DNA of 8,944 bases from Deltaproteobacteria bacterium (GTDB lineage Bacteria > Desulfobacterota > Desulfobacteria > Desulfobacterales > UBA11574), in assembly GCA_019313025.1 (NCBI GenBank), contig JAFDCA010000307.1, forward strand, positions 1 to 8,944, given 5' to 3'. Position 1 is the stretch's first letter; every line of letters begins with the position of its first letter. A program made the position numbers and the translations under genes. A model generated the notes under the pieces. That model made no database searches. It was not told the DNA's origin and saw only the letters and a program-made list of their open reading frames with translations. This document shows positions 1,068 through 8,944 of the stretch, piece by piece.

Positions 1068-1448
1068 ATGAGTGAGTGGATTCCATTTGAAAACGCCACA
1101 TATTTAGTCGATCAGGCTTTTTTGGTAGCAAACGACAATACGGCTGCATCACTGGAGAGAACGTCCATCGAGGTTTATACCGGCAGGGATGGTAAAAAAC
1201 GTTTAAAAGGCAGCGGTCTCGTGCAGAATATGCTGCTCGTAGAGCTTTTGGAAGAAAATGACGACCTGGATTTAATTCTGGATTTAGGTGAAAATTTTAA
1301 ATATGTAATGAAAAAACCGAATTTAACAGCTGGAAAAGTTTTTTCACCAAATGTAAAATCTTATCTTCAATTTGATCCCATTTCCCCCTGGACGCAGATC
1401 TCAGAGTCAGAATTTACGAAGCTGACAAATGGGTTCAAACTGTTATAG
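1068..1448 (+). CDS. Hypothetical soluble protein, 126 residues
   Basis: I do not recognise this protein. It has no signal peptide, membrane segment or cysteine, and looks like a small mixed alpha/beta cytosolic protein. Visible features are a basic turn GRDGKKRLKG (about residues 39-48), a strongly acidic Leu/Asp stretch (about residues 58-74, including EENDDLDLILDLGE), and a C-terminal half with scattered prolines and aromatics ending SEFTKLTNGFKLL. The ribosome site is weak (AAAAGAGAA a few bases before the ATG). The start is chosen as the only ATG giving the full frame. It follows the small membrane gene on the same strand after 61 bases and converges on the PrkA operon. It might be co-transcribed with the upstream gene, but nothing shows a shared function. 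Confidence 0.65.
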   Translation: MSEWIPFENATYLVDQAFLVANDNTAASLERTSIEVYTGRDGKKRLKGSGLVQNMLLVELLEENDDLDLILDLGENFKYVMKKPNLTAGKVFSPNVKSYLQFDPISPWTQISESEFTKLTNGFKLL

Positions 1449-1550
1449 CAATCATCATCAATTAAAAACTCAAGTTTCGTACACTTAATTCAAAAAACAA
1501 TGGTAAATAGCGGTTGGTCAAAAAAATTTAACGTAAAATCATATGGTTGC

Positions 1551-1571
1551 GAAGGCTTTAAAGATGCCTTC
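1551..1571. repeat. Short inverted repeat between convergent genes (possible weak terminator)
   Basis: GAAGGC and GCCTTC form a perfect 6-bp stem around a 9-base loop, in the 172-base spacer between the convergent plus-strand hypothetical gene and the end of the PrkA operon. It is the only clear stem seen here and could act on transcripts from either side. It lacks an immediate U-run: the nearest are a short T4 downstream on the plus strand and a T7 about 20 bases away on the minus strand. It is therefore not a canonical intrinsic terminator. The rest of the spacer is AT-rich without other recognisable sites. Confidence 0.25.
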
Positions 1572-1620
1572 AGGATGAAATCTTTTGAGAATATTTAGAA
1601 GTTTCGAAAGCATGGCAATT

Positions 1621-3912
1621 TTAAGGATTCGAAAACTTTTTAGCAAGATCCATGTCAATAACATACATGCAGACCTCTTTTGCACCTTGCTCGGTGTAAA
1701 GATACTTTTTGCACAGATTGTTGATTAAATATTCAACCTCGCCTCGAATCCTTTTATCATAAGTCTTAAAGTCTTTTTTGTTGTAATCTTTAATGGCACG
1801 ACGAAAATTTTCGTTGTCTAAAAAGGGATCCAGCACCTTTTCCTTGAGATGATATACATATCGGTCGTGCAATGATTGATAAAGCGCTGTGTCCGTAATC
1901 GGTTTCCCCTCAAGTATGATTTCTTGGGTCAAGGTCTTGGATGCATATTCATTTTGGGTGTCTTTTCGAAAAGCGACACGTTTAATTTTGTCTGCCTTCG
2001 GTCCTAGCAGATAATTTTCAATGGTCTCAAAAAACTCCTCGGTAATTTTCATTTTTTCTCCGGTAAAACGGCATGTTTCATGAGACCCTGTTTCAAAGTT
2101 AATGGCAAACAGATATTTTTGTATGTCCATTGAAATTTGTTCTTCATTGTAAAGATAGAGTGACTCTTTAACTTCCTGTAAAATCGTATAGTTGTACATC
2201 CTCAGCAAAGAGTCCAAAAAACCTTTGGGAATGGAAGTATTCAGTTCTTTGCGGTATTTTGTAAAAAATTTATTCAGGGTCGACATGTTGATAAGCTTAT
2301 CCTCTCTGGCATAAGTGGAATAAAACTCATTAAAGATTTTAATCGAATCCCGACCGGAAAAGCCGTGGGCCCCTTCTGTTTCCGATTCGGCTATGATTTT
2401 TCGACGTCGTTTTGCCGTAAATTTTTTTTGATCTTCTTCTGAAAGCCATGGGGGTATATATCCGGTGTAAATTTCCATCTTGAGCAGCTGCAGATTCTCA
2501 TCACAGTATTGACTGTACTTATTCGGATCGCCGATCCATTCCAACAGTGCTTCTGATTTGGTATTCAGCCGCGATGAGATAATAATCCTGGCAAAATTGT
2601 GCAGGATCCTGGGAAGGAAGGAATCATCGATATGCTTACCAAAAATATTTCGGTAAATTTCAACTTCCGTATTCAGATCTAGAACGTAGGGAATCGTAAT
2701 GGATTCGATGCGATCTGAAAACGACTGAAAATCTTTCAACTTTGATTTATCTTCGGGATTCATCAGCGCCAGAAAAAGGGAATTGACATTTTCCTCAATA
2801 TCTCCAACTTTATGAACGCCTTCACTAATGATGTTGTGGAGCTCGATCAAACGATCTTCATTATAGTTTTTGACATCCATAAGGGCATAAATGCCGTTGT
2901 TGGTCTTTGCATATCGCGAAAAATAGTATTTAACTTGGTTGCTGTCTTTTAAAAGGTGGTTTATCCGACTTTGGAGTATGTCGTTCTTATAGATGTCCTG
3001 TTTCAAAGGCTTATCACCTGGATTGAAGACACTGATGCCTTCACCGATCCGTCGATTGAACCTATAGGGCCTGGCATATAGCATTTTAAATACTTTCAGG
3101 GGATTTTTCAGCTTGTTTAACAACGCCTGAAACAACGAACTGCAAATGGTACAGGAATGATCTCTAAACACCCACTCATACTCTTTTTCAGTAAAAAGGT
3201 TCCATTTTATTTCATCGTTTTTAAACAGGTCATCGAAAAATGCCCGGCGATGATCCTTGGGAATGATCAATATGGGGTTGTCATGGCTTGGACAGGGCAC
3301 TTCGATGGTGTTATCTCCCGAATCCAGCACCAGATTTGATCTATATGAACGATTCGGTTCCTCCAAAGTGGTATCCTGGGTTTTAAGCAGCTTTTCAAAT
3401 AATTGAATCGGCCCCCTATCAACCGGGGTCCCCAAAATATTCCGGTCCAACCTCCAAACCGTTTCAAAACGCAACCCCTCTTCGGTATTGGTGTATTCTT
3501 CGAATTTTTTAAGCAGGTTGTTCAAAAAAGTACTTTTGCCGCAGCCATGTGGACCCTCAAAAATATAGATCTTATTTTGTTGGGCACCGCGTTTTAGGGC
3601 TTCAACGAGATTGATCAAGCGGTTTGCAAAAAGTCTGTCGGCAAAAAATGGGGTGTCGGTGCCTCGGATAAAGAGTTGACTGCAATCATAATGAACAAAA
3701 CCGATGGACTCGGGATCATCCGGATATTCGTTGTGGCCTTCGCCAACATAGGTTTTAATCATATCGTGAAAGACTTGGAAAGCATTTCGTATCACCACCG
3801 TCGGTTTTTGAGTGAGTATCTCGAGAAATTCCTCAAAGGAAATGGTTGAACGTCGGTTTCCGGTGGTCATGCTGCGGTTTATATTTTTAATTGCATTTTT
3901 AATGCTGCTCAT
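1621..3912 (-). CDS. Divergent PrkA-like AAA+ protein (second PrkA of the operon)
   Basis: This 763-residue cytosolic protein is related to PrkA (B. subtilis PrkA and E. coli YeaG are about 630-645). Domains in order: the PrkA N-terminal region with SFEEFLEIL (25-33) and a DMIKTY helix; Walker A GPHGCGKS (120-127); a roughly 60-residue insertion; CPSHDNP (207-213), matching the CPMHEDP-type motif of PrkA; CTIC (254-257); a Walker B-like IYALMDV (341-347); a DRI arginine-finger segment (400-402); a sensor 2 region GFSGRDSIKIF (517-527); and a PrkA-type C-terminal region (FTGEKMKITEE, about 616-626). The Cys/His set C207, H210, C254 and C257 could bind zinc. Walker B lacks the usual catalytic Glu (Asp346 instead), so ATP hydrolysis may be slow or absent. 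It is the last gene of the operon, 21 bases after spoVR, with no strong Shine-Dalgarno. Family assignment is firm. Kinase activity in this family is debated (B. subtilis PrkA has also been reported as an ATP-dependent protease), so I do not assign one. Confidence 0.88.
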   Translation of the reverse strand: MSSIKNAIKNINRSMTTGNRRSTISFEEFLEILTQKPTVVIRNAFQVFHDMIKTYVGEGHNEYPDDPESIGFVHYDCSQLFIRGTDTPFFADRLFANRLINLVEALKRGAQQNKIYIFEGPHGCGKSTFLNNLLKKFEEYTNTEEGLRFETVWRLDRNILGTPVDRGPIQLFEKLLKTQDTTLEEPNRSYRSNLVLDSGDNTIEVPCPSHDNPILIIPKDHRRAFFDDLFKNDEIKWNLFTEKEYEWVFRDHSCTICSSLFQALLNKLKNPLKVFKMLYARPYRFNRRIGEGISVFNPGDKPLKQDIYKNDILQSRINHLLKDSNQVKYYFSRYAKTNNGIYALMDVKNYNEDRLIELHNIISEGVHKVGDIEENVNSLFLALMNPEDKSKLKDFQSFSDRIESITIPYVLDLNTEVEIYRNIFGKHIDDSFLPRILHNFARIIISSRLNTKSEALLEWIGDPNKYSQYCDENLQLLKMEIYTGYIPPWLSEEDQKKFTAKRRRKIIAESETEGAHGFSGRDSIKIFNEFYSTYAREDKLINMSTLNKFFTKYRKELNTSIPKGFLDSLLRMYNYTILQEVKESLYLYNEEQISMDIQKYLFAINFETGSHETCRFTGEKMKITEEFFETIENYLLGPKADKIKRVAFRKDTQNEYASKTLTQEIILEGKPITDTALYQSLHDRYVYHLKEKVLDPFLDNENFRRAIKDYNKKDFKTYDKRIRGEVEYLINNLCKKYLYTEQGAKEVCMYVIDMDLAKKFSNP

Positions 3913-3933
3913 GGTTTGACCCGAATTCGACTG

Positions 3934-5586
3934 TTAAATGATCTTTTTGGAAATCTTTCTATTTTCCATGGTGTACAGCACCCGTTCCCATTTCACTTCC
4001 TGTTCTTTGATCTCCTGCTTTTGGGGTGCTGAAAAACCCGAAGTCAAGCTCGTATCCTGAGGCATCGGGACCGAAACAACTTCGCTTGTTTCCAACTGAA
4101 CCGGCCCGCCCCAAAGATATTCAATCCCCATCATCGTATTTGCAATGAACTCTTTGACCAGCGGTTTTCCTTCGAAATGGTGAATCAGATAGAGCGTATT
4201 GTCTTTAATTTTTTCCTCATCGATTTCGATATGGGGTGGATGATACAGGCTGTCAATCAACATTTGACGGTAGTCCTCGACTTTACGGCTTTTGACGGTG
4301 TACTCCCAGACCATTTTTGCCGGATTCAATCTCCGGCCTGAAACAAACAGCTTATTTTGGGAGACAAAATCCTGATCAACAAAGGTGTTGATAAACATGA
4401 AATCACAAAAATCATCGCGAACTTTAAAAATAAAGTCTTTTCCTTTACCGGTATTTTTATTGTATTTTTTTCTTTTATCCGCATCATTGATCTTTCGGAA
4501 TTCCAAGTCATATTTCCCCTTATCGCCCATGTCCTCAATGTATTGAAACAGACGCATCCCTAAAGCATAGGGATTGAGTCCCACACGGAGTAAAGATGTA
4601 ACGCCGGCATTGACCCGGGCAAATTCTACTTCATTCCCGTTGATACGGTTATCCTTTAAAAAAAGGTTTTCATGCCAGTAACTGGCCCAGCCTTCATTCA
4701 TAATTTTGGTTCTGATCTGAGGCTGGAAAAACAAAGACGTTTTGCGGATGACTTCCATCACGGATGTCATCCATCGGTTGTCATCCTTTTTTAACACATC
4801 TGAATGTTTGATTAAAAACTGTATAATATCCAACTTAACGTTGTTGTTCTCCTTGAGGTGTTTTTTAAAAACCGCTTCAAATTCAGGGTGTTTCTTGTTT
4901 ACATCTGAAAAGAACGTCTTTTCTCCGAGATCACCATTTGTGGTCATGCATTCATTATATCGATTAATTTCTTTCATATATTCATGAATTTTTACTTTCT
5001 TGACTGCCTGTAAAAAAACATCGAAATAGTAGTCGAGTCGTTTCGATCGGTCTTCAGGCAATGGGCAGTTCATTCGGGAAAGTTGACCATGATATCCGAC
5101 GAGGTTGTCGATACCACGGGTAAATTCGATAATATAATCGACCCATCTTCCCTTTTCAGATCTCAGCTTTGCAATAAGTCGTTTGTCCGAAAGGGCCTGT
5201 CCGGTAAAGTCATCGTCCCAGGTATGGCGAAAAAAGAGATTGTTCTGAAAAAAATCGATATGGGCAAGCACATGATAAAATATCATTACGTTCAGCCAAT
5301 CTGGGTTATTATCGTTGTAAAAGGAAATGGCCGGTCGAGTATTGATTACGGTTTCATAAGGATTCCCGGGGTAGAGTTCGTATCTGCCTTTCTCCTTTAG
5401 GACTTCAACTTCATGAACCCAATAATCGTAAAGTGTCGGAATCATCACTTTTGGGGTGAGTTCCAGAAGATCACGGTTTGTTACAATATACTCCAGTGTT
5501 TCATCTTCGAAACAAAGACCGGCTTCCCGTGCTCTGTCCTTACAGCCTTCCATCATTTTTTTGGTATGTTGATCAATGAGTTTCAT
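3934..5586 (-). CDS. spoVR: SpoVR/YcgB family protein
   Basis: At 550 residues this is slightly longer than E. coli YcgB (about 510). Recognisable blocks are an N-terminal helical region; NPDWLNVMIFYHVLAHIDFF (94-113, with H105 and H109); the GYHGQLSR segment (164-171); MNEGWASYWHENL (296-308), a hallmark of the family; GLNPYALGMRLFQYIED (336-352), also strongly conserved; and a C-terminal region with LIHHFEGKPL. The last 50 or so residues (from about 498) are Gln/Glu/Pro-rich and look like a lineage-specific tail. The family is named for B. subtilis SpoVR, which is involved in spore cortex formation, but it is common in non-sporulating bacteria with PrkA and YeaH, as here. Its molecular activity is unknown. 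The ATG overlaps the stop of the upstream VWA gene by one base (TAATG) and lacks its own good ribosome site, suggesting translational coupling. Confidence 0.95.
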   Translation of the reverse strand: MKLIDQHTKKMMEGCKDRAREAGLCFEDETLEYIVTNRDLLELTPKVMIPTLYDYWVHEVEVLKEKGRYELYPGNPYETVINTRPAISFYNDNNPDWLNVMIFYHVLAHIDFFQNNLFFRHTWDDDFTGQALSDKRLIAKLRSEKGRWVDYIIEFTRGIDNLVGYHGQLSRMNCPLPEDRSKRLDYYFDVFLQAVKKVKIHEYMKEINRYNECMTTNGDLGEKTFFSDVNKKHPEFEAVFKKHLKENNNVKLDIIQFLIKHSDVLKKDDNRWMTSVMEVIRKTSLFFQPQIRTKIMNEGWASYWHENLFLKDNRINGNEVEFARVNAGVTSLLRVGLNPYALGMRLFQYIEDMGDKGKYDLEFRKINDADKRKKYNKNTGKGKDFIFKVRDDFCDFMFINTFVDQDFVSQNKLFVSGRRLNPAKMVWEYTVKSRKVEDYRQMLIDSLYHPPHIEIDEEKIKDNTLYLIHHFEGKPLVKEFIANTMMGIEYLWGGPVQLETSEVVSVPMPQDTSLTSGFSAPQKQEIKEQEVKWERVLYTMENRKISKKII

Positions 5587-5588
5587 TA
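5584..5588 (-). other. TAATG stop/start overlap between VWA and spoVR genes
   Basis: On the minus strand the TAA of the VWA gene shares one base with the ATG of spoVR. The 25 bases upstream contain no convincing Shine-Dalgarno (only a GGA far back), so reinitiation by the terminating ribosome is the likely start mechanism. Confidence 0.7.
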
Positions 5589-6971
5589 TGAAATGAGCTT
5601 TTTAATTCCTTCGATGATACGAGATTCGTCAGCATCCTCCTTCATAACGTCGAGCCGGAGCAACTTCGGTTTTTCATCCAGGAGCTCCGATTTTTTGAGA
5701 TATCTTTCAACCTCGGTATTCTTAACGGCGTTGTTTGAATGTTCGGCAATGGTGATTCCGATTCGATTGGCATAGGTCAGCATTTTGTTAAGCTCAGGGA
5801 TGAACTCTTTGCCCTCGGTGTCCCAATCGTCACCGTCGGTTCCATGAAATATGTAGATATTATAATCGGCCGCCAGATTCTCCTTTTCCACGATATCGTT
5901 TACCAGACGAAATGCGGATGCCACCCGGGTTCCGCCGGCGACTTTGGAGTTGTAATAGGTGTAAAAATCATCGACTTCTTTGGCTTCGGTGTCATGGAGA
6001 ATGAAGCGGGATTCGACCTGCATGGCATACTGATATAAAAGCCAGCTGTATATCAGGACATGTTGTGACACGATCAGCCGGGTCGGATTGCCATGCATGG
6101 AGCCAGAGTAATCCCGCAGGAAAAAGACCAGCGCCTGTGAGTCGTAATCCTTTTCACGTGAGAGGATTCGATAGATTCTGTCACTCGGTGAAATCAGAAA
6201 ACCGGTGGGATCAATACAACCGATATCGGGCAGATTCCCTAAGATGATGTTGGTTTCCATAATTTTTCGCAAGGTTGCTTTTTTATCGATAATCTGTCCG
6301 AATCTTCGATTTTTGTCGGTTAAGTCATAGGTGTATCGGGTAAGCGAACGTTTTTTACCCTTGTCTTTTAGATTGGGGAGTTCAAAATGCTCGGTAAGGA
6401 TTTTGCCCAAGTCATAAGCGTTCGATTCCATGTCATGCTGTCCGCCGTCTCCTTCACCAGACCCTTCGCCTCCCTGGATCTCCGGATCATGTACCGGCTG
6501 TTCATGAATAACCTCTCCTTCTTCTCCGTCACCGGATCCGCCGGACGACCCCTCTTCCGAAGTGTTAAGTCTCTTGTCATGAATAAATTTTTCTTCGACG
6601 GTGGTGGGGACCACAACGATCTTGTCCCTGTCGCCCTTTCCCGGCTTTACCATCCGACCCACCCGAATTTTCCGAGGAAAACCGTCTTTTTCTCTTTGTT
6701 TGTCCCTATCCAGCAGTTCATCGATGGATCGCAAGCGATTGATATAAGTGCTTTGCGGTGAACTCATATTCTGCAATTTACAAAGATCATTGTAAGCATA
6801 GACACTGCAAAGAGAATCAGACGCGGTATCTTTCGCTTCGGCCGGCATTGGAGCAATCTCATGGCTCCGGTCGCCTTGGAGTTCGGAAAGGATTTTTTCC
6901 TCCTGTCCGGGGTTCAGGCCTTTTCTTTTCAATTTTTGGTAATATGCCAGGATGTCATCATTCATGCTCAT
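5586..6971 (-). CDS. yeaH: DUF444 / YeaH-type VWA-domain protein
   Basis: This 461-residue protein belongs to the YeaH family (UPF0229/DUF444; E. coli YeaH is 427). The N-terminal part (1-130) is helical and basic. A low-complexity Gly/Glu/Asp linker spans about 138-180. The C-terminal VWA domain carries a complete MIDAS metal site: DYSGS (287-291), the GGT threonine (T348) and TDGDDWD (378-384). The family signature HDTEAKEVDDF (326-336) precedes the GGT, as in E. coli YeaH. VWA/MIDAS domains bind a divalent metal and usually mediate protein contacts. Next to an AAA+ motor, this recalls MoxR/VWA pairs and suggests an adaptor for PrkA. The ATG overlaps the prkA stop by one base. M3 is an alternative start two codons in. 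Family assignment is firm; the partner role is inferred. Confidence 0.95.
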   Translation of the reverse strand: MSMNDDILAYYQKLKRKGLNPGQEEKILSELQGDRSHEIAPMPAEAKDTASDSLCSVYAYNDLCKLQNMSSPQSTYINRLRSIDELLDRDKQREKDGFPRKIRVGRMVKPGKGDRDKIVVVPTTVEEKFIHDKRLNTSEEGSSGGSGDGEEGEVIHEQPVHDPEIQGGEGSGEGDGGQHDMESNAYDLGKILTEHFELPNLKDKGKKRSLTRYTYDLTDKNRRFGQIIDKKATLRKIMETNIILGNLPDIGCIDPTGFLISPSDRIYRILSREKDYDSQALVFFLRDYSGSMHGNPTRLIVSQHVLIYSWLLYQYAMQVESRFILHDTEAKEVDDFYTYYNSKVAGGTRVASAFRLVNDIVEKENLAADYNIYIFHGTDGDDWDTEGKEFIPELNKMLTYANRIGITIAEHSNNAVKNTEVERYLKKSELLDEKPKLLRLDVMKEDADESRIIEGIKKLIS

Positions 6972-6973
6972 TA
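6969..6973 (-). other. TAATG stop/start overlap between prkA and VWA genes
   Basis: This is the same one-base TAA/ATG overlap as at the next junction. Only a weak AAGAAG lies upstream, so translational coupling of prkA and yeaH is likely. Confidence 0.7.
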
Positions 6974-8935
6974 ATTTTCATCTTCTTGGGTACAAAAATA
7001 TTCGATGGTCTTTTGTGCACATGTCTTACAGTAATTGAGCTTTTCTAGCATGGTCACAATCATACGATCATAGAGTTTCTGATTTTCTTCATTGGTGCGA
7101 TTGGCCAGTGCACCGATCAGACTGCCTGCGCCAGCAATATCGGATTTAAGCCGAACATCGGTAACCGCCTTAACTAGCTCTAGATTATCCATGAAATCAT
7201 AATTAGGATCCACGGCGATCTTTTGGCCATAGATCTTTCGAATGGAAGTTCTAAAAGTTTCACGCTGTTCTTCCGTCTTGAGCCCCAGTCTTTCTTCAAT
7301 ACTTTTGATATAACGCTCATCGATTCTCATGGCCTGAAGCTCTCCGGTCTGAGGATCCTTGTATTTCCACATTTTGTCGGGCCCCAAATTTTCAGCATCA
7401 ATCCCAATGATCATATTCACATAGTTCATCACATCTTTTCGAATGGCCAAGGGCTCGTCCATATAAGCGTTGAACATCTCCGTCATCACGCGTTCGCGAT
7501 ACATCCCTTTTGCGGTTTTGAGATCATCCAAAAACTTTGCCCGGTCATTGGCATCTGTCACATAATCGAGGACAACCCTTTCCAGTGCCTTGTAAATGTC
7601 ATATGCAAACATGCATTTGCCTTCATTGGTGTCAGAGCTTTCAATCATCAATTGAATGGCCCGGCCTAAATTCCGCTGGCCCAAGCCCTTTTGACCAAAC
7701 CGTTTTGTAATATCCGGCTCCTGGTTTAAGGTGTCAATGACCTCAGCCAGGGTTTTGATGCTTTTTTCACCGGCCACTTCACCGGCAGCCAGTTTCATTG
7801 TTTCAATAGGGGTTAGTTTTTCCGATCGGGGAAGGCGGGTAAGAACCACTGCCACCGAAGCTGCATAATTCAAGTTGGGATCTTTGTGAAGCGGTTCCTT
7901 GTTGATCGTCGTTTTGATATCGCTCCCAATAGCGTATGACGTGAGATCTTGCTGCAGCTTATAATTCGTATTGTGTGACACATAGCAGACACGGCACCGG
8001 TCAACAATGGGGGCCTCTTCTTTTTCAGCCATAAAGCGGTTGAATTCAGAATTATTACTTGTAGCGACAATCAACGTGTCGATGGGCCATTTGTATCCGT
8101 CAATTTCAATATTTCTGTTTTGAATGACTCCCAGATAGACCTGAACAAGATCTTTTTTGTTTTTAAATATTTCGTCACTGAAATGAATGCCCCCGCCTGC
8201 CACGCGGGCCAGTGCGCCGCGCCTCAAGTCAAAGCGGTACGGATTGTTGGTGTCCGTAATATGCAGGAGACGCTGTATGGACTCTTCACCCAACAGATCA
8301 ACAGCCGAAGAGGTTATCTTATCTTTCGCCGGATATTTTCCTGTTACCGTTCCCAAACTTTCGGTAAGGGGAACCGGAACGATTTCAATGAATTTTAACA
8401 TGTCCTCCATGGTATTGTCCGTGTATGCTCGAATATCGTTCCAAATATATCCGCTGCATGCACCCAGAGGGCGATAGTCTTCATAAAAACTTTCAATTTC
8501 ATCATCTGAAAATCCTATTTCTTTGGAAAGAAGGGTTTTATTATCATCTACGCCTTCAAAGAGGTTCAAGGCCAGGATCATGGGATCTTCATATGTTTGG
8601 GATTCAATGGATGTAATTTTCCCGTAACCTTTTAACTTATCCAAATTGACGAACTTAAAGGTGTACTTTTTATTCTTCTCCTGGGACAGGTAGTAACGGT
8701 ATTTGCTGCATAAAAATTCAACAAAGAAGGTTTTTCCGTTTCCGGGCTCCCCCACTAGGACGTAGGCCATTTCTTTTGACGATCCCCCTTCTGCAGCATC
8801 CTTTACAAAGGAGACGAAACTGTTAATTTCATCGTACATGCCGATAATGTGCTTTCCGCCTGTATTGAAAAGTTTGAAATTGTATGTGGTTTTCCCCTGA
8901 ACGATAACCTTTTCAATGTCACTTTCCAGAATCAT
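6971..8935 (-). CDS. prkA: PrkA family AAA+ serine protein kinase-like protein (start may lie upstream of window)
   Basis: At least 654 residues, cytosolic. The AAA+ core is intact: Walker A GEPGNGKT (62-69), Walker B IHFSDE (250-255, D254/E255), sensor 1 ATSNNSEF (291-298), arginine finger segment VDRCRV (311-316) and sensor 2 region GLGQRNLGRAI (417-427). The C-terminal half matches the PrkA kinase-like domain, including YKDPQTGEL (525-533), IKSIEERLGL (543-552) and FRTSIRKIYG (561-570). The end carries a Cys cluster (C636, C639, C647) that may bind metal. Relative to canonical PrkA, Walker A comes about 50 residues early, and the FEEFL-type N-terminal region is absent. The frame is open for the three codons up to the window edge and no ribosome site is visible before the ATG, so the true start may be further upstream. 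The gene heads the visible operon. PrkA is described as a kinase and, in B. subtilis, as an ATP-dependent protease; which applies here cannot be read from the sequence. Confidence 0.93.
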   Translation of the reverse strand: MILESDIEKVIVQGKTTYNFKLFNTGGKHIIGMYDEINSFVSFVKDAAEGGSSKEMAYVLVGEPGNGKTFFVEFLCSKYRYYLSQEKNKKYTFKFVNLDKLKGYGKITSIESQTYEDPMILALNLFEGVDDNKTLLSKEIGFSDDEIESFYEDYRPLGACSGYIWNDIRAYTDNTMEDMLKFIEIVPVPLTESLGTVTGKYPAKDKITSSAVDLLGEESIQRLLHITDTNNPYRFDLRRGALARVAGGGIHFSDEIFKNKKDLVQVYLGVIQNRNIEIDGYKWPIDTLIVATSNNSEFNRFMAEKEEAPIVDRCRVCYVSHNTNYKLQQDLTSYAIGSDIKTTINKEPLHKDPNLNYAASVAVVLTRLPRSEKLTPIETMKLAAGEVAGEKSIKTLAEVIDTLNQEPDITKRFGQKGLGQRNLGRAIQLMIESSDTNEGKCMFAYDIYKALERVVLDYVTDANDRAKFLDDLKTAKGMYRERVMTEMFNAYMDEPLAIRKDVMNYVNMIIGIDAENLGPDKMWKYKDPQTGELQAMRIDERYIKSIEERLGLKTEEQRETFRTSIRKIYGQKIAVDPNYDFMDNLELVKAVTDVRLKSDIAGAGSLIGALANRTNEENQKLYDRMIVTMLEKLNYCKTCAQKTIEYFCTQEDEN

Positions 8936-8944
8936 TTTGGAAAC

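Follow-up and report, generated by a model that had tools for sequence, protein, structure and literature searches.

A conserved four-gene variant of the PrkA-YeaH-SpoVR stress module with two divergent PrkA-like AAA+ proteins

Known PrkA modules and the operon of the window

The canonical PrkA/YeaG-YeaH/YhbH-SpoVR/YcgB module combines one type of the AAA+ protein PrkA with YeaH (DUF444) and SpoVR, and has the order PrkA-YeaH-SpoVR in our comparison loci L161-L163, L165-L168 and L193; within the stretch of E. coli examined, adjacency is limited to yeaG and yeaH. Expression of E. coli yeaG occurs under stress, and the gene is needed in sustained nitrogen starvation (PMC4664914). For the AAA+ protein PrkA of B. 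anthracis, neither kinase nor protease activity was detected; it is required for sporulation and gives oligomeric species once ATP is added, and the kinase activity of Bacillus PrkA is disputed in the same report, where autophosphorylation was not detected (PMC13001217). B. subtilis SpoVR binds RNA in vivo (PMC12456014). In haloarchaea, paired adjacent PrkA genes, always accompanied by DUF444 and SpoVR, were noted in 2011 in all genomes compared (PMC3102087). Here we analyze a window (the whole stretch of DNA under study, 8,944 nucleotides) from a Desulfobacterales bacterium, contig JAFDCA010000307.1, in which the same three families form a four-gene operon. This operon encodes two divergent PrkA-like proteins, hereafter called short and long, and no canonical PrkA.

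The four genes lie on the minus strand in the order short, YeaH, SpoVR and long, all in one direction and tightly packed, with a one-base overlap (TAATG) at both the short/YeaH and the YeaH/SpoVR junctions and a gap of 21 bases between SpoVR and long. Both PrkA-like proteins pass the curated cut-off of 25 bits for the PrkA C-terminal domain (PF06798; 131 bits for short and 179 bits for long) and for the PrkA AAA domain (PF08298; 46.2 and 43.5 bits, respectively). With the PrkA/YeaG equivalog of NCBIfam (NF011999, cut-off 576), short scores 35.4 bits, which is below the cut-off, and long has no match at E 0.1. YeaH passes both PF04285 (109 bits, cut-off 27) and NF003712 of NCBIfam (750 bits, cut-off 421). 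SpoVR passes PF04293 (201 bits, cut-off 27) and stays below the cut-offs of the equivalog NF008737 (86.5 of 679 bits) and of the SpoVR_C domain PF24755 (25.7 of 27.6 bits). The evidence presented below supports the view that this operon is a genuine, conserved and distinct subtype of the PrkA-YeaH-SpoVR stress module: its PrkA, YeaH and SpoVR proteins form clades of their own, the gene order is conserved, and no genome in the four samples searched has a canonical-range PrkA alongside this pair, in agreement with the proposal of a subtype made in an earlier reading of the sequence without database searches (the sequence-only reading).

The haloarchaeal cluster likewise contains two PrkA-related genes with DUF444 and SpoVR, and a doubled PrkA as such is therefore not new (PMC3102087). 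The haloarchaeal PrkA genes are adjacent, whereas those of the window bracket YeaH and SpoVR; the two pairs are compared here by the published description only. A search for haloarchaeal PrkA and SpoVR sequences on plasmids named no haloarchaeon among the matches listed. Among the entries listed from the open-licence literature, we have not found a description of the order in which two PrkA genes enclose YeaH and SpoVR, of the two families in bacteria or of the Walker B asymmetry presented below.

Gene order and pairing across genomes

The nearest loci, L001 and L037, come from metagenome-assembled genomes of Desulfobacterales and Desulfobacteraceae. Of the 50 long-gene loci examined, 26 extend 5.4 kilobases (kb) or more upstream, and the order short-YeaH-SpoVR-long was found in 22 of these 26, the exceptions being L015, L033, L044 and L049. 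Such recurrence argues that the arrangement is not due to chance, and none of the remaining 24 loci, which have less upstream room, departs from this order over the stretch available. The coordinates and Pfam matches, together with these 22 loci, bear out the sequence-only reading of a four-gene operon with a second, divergent PrkA gene 21 bases after spoVR.

We further examined the distribution of the PrkA types in larger genome samples, which overlap and whose counts come without completeness values. Of 297 genomes from the phylum of G004, 43 match PF06798: 20 have long plus short, 18 have canonical PrkA, four have a type II pair (see below), and the match of the last scores below the cut-off. 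Classes are never mixed within a genome of this sample, and none of the genomes has only one of long and short by PF06798; in 18 of the 20 paired genomes, both genes lie within approximately 7 kb on the same strand. The short profile adds G020, where a partial short gene without a long gene is located at a contig end. In the phylum of G017 (150 genomes, 18 of them matching), both types are present in 11 genomes and only the canonical type in three, whereas G377 and G387 have only long, and G383 and G442 only short. The phylum of G016 (247 genomes, 50 of them matching) is dominated by canonical PrkA (44), with one pair, one type II, three type Y (see below) and one fragment. The phylum sample of G003, with two genomes, contributed nothing further.

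The most extensive set of pairs comes from the order of G018, where 103 of 194 genomes match, 101 of them above the cut-off and none in the canonical range (best 202 bits). All 101 contain the long gene (97 by PF06798 and four more by the long profile), and 97 of them have the short gene, which was seen directly in 65; for the other 32, a second PF06798 match points to it. Long is thus not found mostly without short, the outcome that the sequence-only reading had named as refuting its proposal. In two of the four genomes of this order that lack short, G740 and G878, the contigs end before the gene could appear. G002 has YeaH-SpoVR-long on one contig with no short alongside, and the fourth genome is G764, which is discussed below.

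The operon is scattered in several genomes, all of which retain both PrkA types. Long, short and YeaH-SpoVR occupy three separate places in G012; G013 and G015 keep short-YeaH-SpoVR together with long elsewhere; in G262, long, short-YeaH and SpoVR are found at three places on one contig; and in G008, short-YeaH is separated from SpoVR-long.

Three further observations concern individual loci. The complete four-gene operon occurs twice in tandem at L201:1765-16895, part of which is covered by L010. SpoVR is split over two open frames at L189:6889-8562, and the long gene of G302 has a stop within its PF06798 match.

The two PrkA types and their relatives

The short protein possesses the AAA+ ATPase motif set, namely Walker A, an Asp-Glu Walker B, a sensor 1 Asn and a conserved arginine (as sequence motifs only), in nearly all or all of 169 sequences (Table 1), and the claim of intact motifs is confirmed at this level. 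The companion claim that short has little N-terminal domain turned out to be an effect of the window edge. The short reading frame stays open to base 8944, so that the gene runs past the window. The protein P0127, 99% identical to short, has 686 amino acids and starts 32 residues further N-terminal, and this additional stretch is matched in the alignment by the N-terminal domain of canonical PrkA. Among the 120 listed database relatives of short, 104 carry the FENAFQ motif in this stretch, a further 13 have a variant form of the motif, and 118 are at least 680 amino acids long. Short thus retains most of the N-terminal domain.

Of 193 sequences of the long protein, 185 have the sensor 1 pattern. 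The Cys/His cluster, which had been regarded as a peculiarity of long, is also present in canonical PrkA, including the solved PrkA 9xip. Its second half appears as LCPxC in 33 of 36 canonical-scoring frames, some of which come from the same genome, and its first half, by a stricter pattern, in 21 of the 36, four of these with Ser for His. The cluster is absent from short, as it is from E. coli YeaG. Structure models were moderate for long (predicted local distance difference test, pLDDT, 67, with a weak AAA+ part) and unusable for short (pLDDT 48); searches of the PDB by fold with these models returned only generic AAA+-like matches, with NorQ at rank 47 and NorQD at rank 49. The match to 9xip is by sequence only, and its absence from the fold search carries no evidential weight.

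The two types differ consistently in Walker B. Asp occupies the canonical Glu position in 193/193 long sequences, whereas the motif ends in Asp-Glu in 169/169 short sequences. Canonical PrkA itself does not have the classical Asp-Glu; its motif reads G-x-x-E-(F/Y)-x-E in 17/17 proteins of the tree set and ends in a single acidic residue (Glu, 17/17), so that the short family, and not canonical PrkA, resembles textbook AAA+ proteins. The long motif ends in Met-Asp with no Glu (193/193) and lacks the Asp-Glu pair of AAA+ Walker B motifs. Between long and canonical PrkA, the alignment is gap-free by both MAFFT and profile methods, and on this basis the long Asp can be firmly assigned to the canonical Glu position. 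MAFFT aligns the short Asp, not the Glu, with the canonical Glu; profile alignments place the short Glu on Glu with canonical and type II upstream PrkA, and the short Asp on Asp with type II downstream PrkA. The correspondence of the canonical Glu to the short Glu is accordingly graded as likely, not certain. The description of the long Walker B as degenerate stands as far as the invariant Asp-for-Glu replacement is concerned, but canonical PrkA likewise lacks Asp-Glu. The suggested complementarity of the two paralogs, in turn, keeps its Walker B component, while the contrast in N-terminal domains was in part created by the edge of the window.

A phylogenetic tree of 51 PrkA proteins contains four clades with 100/100 support, namely long, short and the upstream and the downstream proteins of type II, and a canonical clade with a support of 99.7/100. 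In this tree, the type II downstream proteins group with short (91/96) and the type II upstream proteins with the canonical ones (97.9/99), although the stems are very long (1.5-2.3 substitutions per site). Approximately unbiased (AU) tests were applied to seven constrained trees with 39 of the 51 sequences. The only constraint rejected at 5% was the joint one, with short and long as sisters and type II upstream and downstream as sisters (p 0.0008), which corresponds to a separate duplication in each lineage. The other constrained trees gave p values from 0.053 to 0.70, among them the tree in which only short and long are sisters (0.22) and that with one duplication common to types I and II (0.054). 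The YeaH and SpoVR trees contain three clades each, type I (the window type), type II and canonical, and are unrooted, hence giving no ordering. Comparison of profiles by hhalign yielded a score of 46 for long-short, as opposed to 217 for long-canonical and 250 for short-canonical, and the long-short alignment covers 100 columns around the P-loop. The mean column identity is 87% for short (19 sequences) and 69% for long (23 sequences).

A second four-gene family, type II, was found in L151-L155 (G037, G210, G232, G292 and G658). It has the same order, PrkA-YeaH-SpoVR-PrkA, and resembles the window operon in its Glu-type upstream and Asp-type downstream PrkA, and its sequences are very divergent. 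The type II PrkA proteins comprise 739-740 and 832-863 amino acids and YeaH comprises 355-363. Walker B has Asp in 120/120 downstream proteins and Glu in the 3/3 upstream proteins aligned. The D.SGSM pattern of YeaH, which we take to be a metal ion-dependent adhesion site (MIDAS)-like motif, is missing from type II YeaH (0/5). The named relatives of the type II downstream PrkA include Deltaproteobacteria, Acidobacteria, SAR324 and Spirochaetales. Additionally, G463 and G493 encode type X PrkA-like proteins with a Walker B Asp (Table 1, L159 and L160), and canonical PrkA is found elsewhere in the same genome; like the type Y proteins discussed below, they speak against a simple rule.

Table 1. 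Features of the window operon (positions in the window) and reading frames of type X PrkA-like proteins (positions in the named loci)
Feature	Position	Strand	Details
PrkA-like short AAA+ gene	6971..8944	-	truncated by window end; 654 amino acids from ATG at 8935; relatives about 686 amino acids
Short Walker A GEPGNGKT	8729..8752	-	168/169 short sequences
Short Walker B GIHFSDE, classical Asp-Glu	8171..8191	-	DE ending in 169/169
Short sensor 1 region ATSNNSE (putative function, by homology)	8045..8065	-	ATSNNxE in 169/169
Short conserved DR, arginine-finger candidate	7994..8005	-	169/169
YeaH gene (DUF444, VWA-like)	5586..6971	-	461 amino acids; PF04285 and NF003712
YeaH DYSGSM motif	6096..6113	-	D.SGSM in 14/14 type I, 10/10 canonical, 0/5 type II
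SpoVR gene	3934..5586	-	550 amino acids; PF04293
PrkA-like long AAA+ gene	1621..3912	-	763 amino acids, complete; open reading frame and Pfam
Long N-terminal domain core (SFEEFL...QVFHDMI)	3757..3840	-	alignment with canonical PrkA
Long Walker A GPHGCGKS	3532..3555	-	193/193 long sequences
Long Cys/His cluster, first half CPSHD	3280..3294	-	191/193; common with canonical PrkA
Long Cys/His cluster, second half CTIC	3142..3153	-	CTxC in 193/193
Long Walker B GIYALMD, Asp replacing canonical Glu	2875..2895	-	193/193; gap-free alignment to canonical PrkA
Long SFSDR, arginine-finger candidate	2710..2724	-	pattern in 191/193
Type X frame	L159:7743-10715		991 amino acids; PrkA-like, Walker B Asp
Type X frame	L160:8253-10904		884 amino acids; PrkA-like, Walker B Asp

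Among the neighbors of the operon, no family recurs as a fifth gene, as none is found within 4.5 kb in more than six of 23 loci. A scan of positions 1300-4100 for promoters and terminators gave no more sites than shuffled sequence. By sequence, no clear relative of the window YeaH or SpoVR was found among solved structures. The remainder of the window contains a 126-amino acid frame at 1068-1448 on the plus strand, for which neither Pfam nor NCBIfam gave a match at E 0.1 and which has an 84% identical copy in L037, and a HAD-type hydrolase (PF00702) at 2-604 on the minus strand, truncated by the window end.

Possible roles of the two PrkA proteins

We consider a functional pairing of short and long likely. 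Our best single guess, which is unproven and to which we give slightly less than an even chance, is a two-subunit module with short and long in one common ring. In this scenario, the two-PrkA version would stand in for the one-PrkA version of the stress module. Short would be the main ATP-hydrolyzing AAA+ subunit, and long might bind nucleotide with slow or no hydrolysis while contributing its Cys/His site, probably a metal site, as a regulatory or substrate-docking subunit; the two would most likely share one ring. YeaH may couple this ring to its client via the MIDAS-like VWA domain, and SpoVR would be the effector or the client, with a role in surviving starvation or stress. We infer the difference in hydrolysis from the Walker B asymmetry, which supports, at the level of sequence only, the original suggestion of a catalytic and a regulatory subunit. 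In favor of the scenario are the conserved gene order, the near-constant co-occurrence of both types, even where the genes are scattered, the lack of canonical PrkA in the same genomes, the tandem copies of the whole operon at L201, the invariant Walker B difference, the parallel type II family and the D.SGSM motif conserved in YeaH (14/14). AAA+ ring proteins encoded beside a VWA protein are known from NorQ/NorD, BchI/BchD and MoxR/VWA, and BchI/BchD combines one active with one degenerate AAA+ subunit. The likeness of these pairs to the window operon is one of arrangement only, and no family membership is claimed.

Several points weigh against this scenario. The contact between short and long is a supposition, and an interface for a common ring is not obvious because the profile similarity of the two proteins is slight. 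The motif is no guide to ATPase activity, since canonical PrkA is already devoid of Asp-Glu, and whether the Asp or the Glu of short corresponds to the lone acidic residue in the other types depends on the alignment. The pairing has what looks like a genuine exception in G764, whose 5.57-megabase contig represents approximately a whole genome and carries an intact long gene (L194:9109-11487), with no short or SpoVR found. Conversely, the contig-level genome G383 has short, YeaH and SpoVR, and long was not found in it. Finally, Asp-type PrkA-like proteins (type Y) are encoded in G506, G531 and G541, where no YeaH was found (L156:7495-9666, L157:6179-8431 and L158:5793-8006; 724-751 amino acids; Walker B Asp in 3/3), and an Asp-type protein can thus do without this system.

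Some of these observations are in line with two separate homo-oligomers that carry out different steps of the same YeaH/SpoVR pathway and are co-retained without touching each other, which we consider possible, if somewhat improbable. The barely alike profiles (score 46 over 100 columns around the P-loop), the genomes in which the genes are unlinked and yet both retained, and the presence of long alone in G764 all agree with it, as does the oligomerization of B. anthracis PrkA with ATP (PMC13001217). The fixed Walker B asymmetry is more easily explained by one subunit working for the other, and the similar asymmetry in the type II family points in the same direction. We regard it as unlikely that short-YeaH-SpoVR is the true core and long an accessory with a job of its own, linked to the others only by a common promoter and acting, for example, as a stress sensor or as a repressor that senses nucleotides. 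This would account for the long gene standing apart in the split operons of G013 and G015, and in G262, where SpoVR is apart too, for the occurrence of long without short or SpoVR in G764, and for the stronger conservation of short (87% versus 69% mean column identity, from 19 and 23 sequences). It is at odds with the near-constant co-occurrence of both types and with G002 and G008, where long is kept beside SpoVR and it is short that is missing or apart.

That one PrkA was recently duplicated into a redundant pair is very hard to reconcile with the data and has only a marginal probability. The Pfam domains are common to both proteins, and an old duplication is compatible with the AU test of short and long as sisters (p 0.22). 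Judging from the separate 100/100 clades with their very long stems, the near-absent profile similarity and the different, fixed motifs, a duplication, if any, was not recent, and long and short are, on these comparisons, old and far diverged proteins. The proposal that the pair is not simply redundant is also upheld by the hhalign scores, which are far lower between long and short than from either to canonical PrkA.

Returning to the two-subunit module, one could tentatively, and with some doubt, extend it to type II and perhaps to the haloarchaeal pairs: these may be deeply separate split-motor forms, in which a Glu-type or classical PrkA and an Asp-type PrkA flanking YeaH-SpoVR act as one hetero-oligomeric AAA+ machine, with the division into active and impaired subunits stemming from one ancient duplication or from repeated origin. 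PrkA, YeaH and SpoVR are widespread and linked to stress, and their mechanism is obscure. A motor split over two genes that are almost always inherited together and have different, invariant active sites would provide a natural dissection of the system, in which the parts that depend on hydrolysis may be told from those that depend on the Cys/His site, and it would offer a handle on which protein the VWA domain of YeaH contacts.

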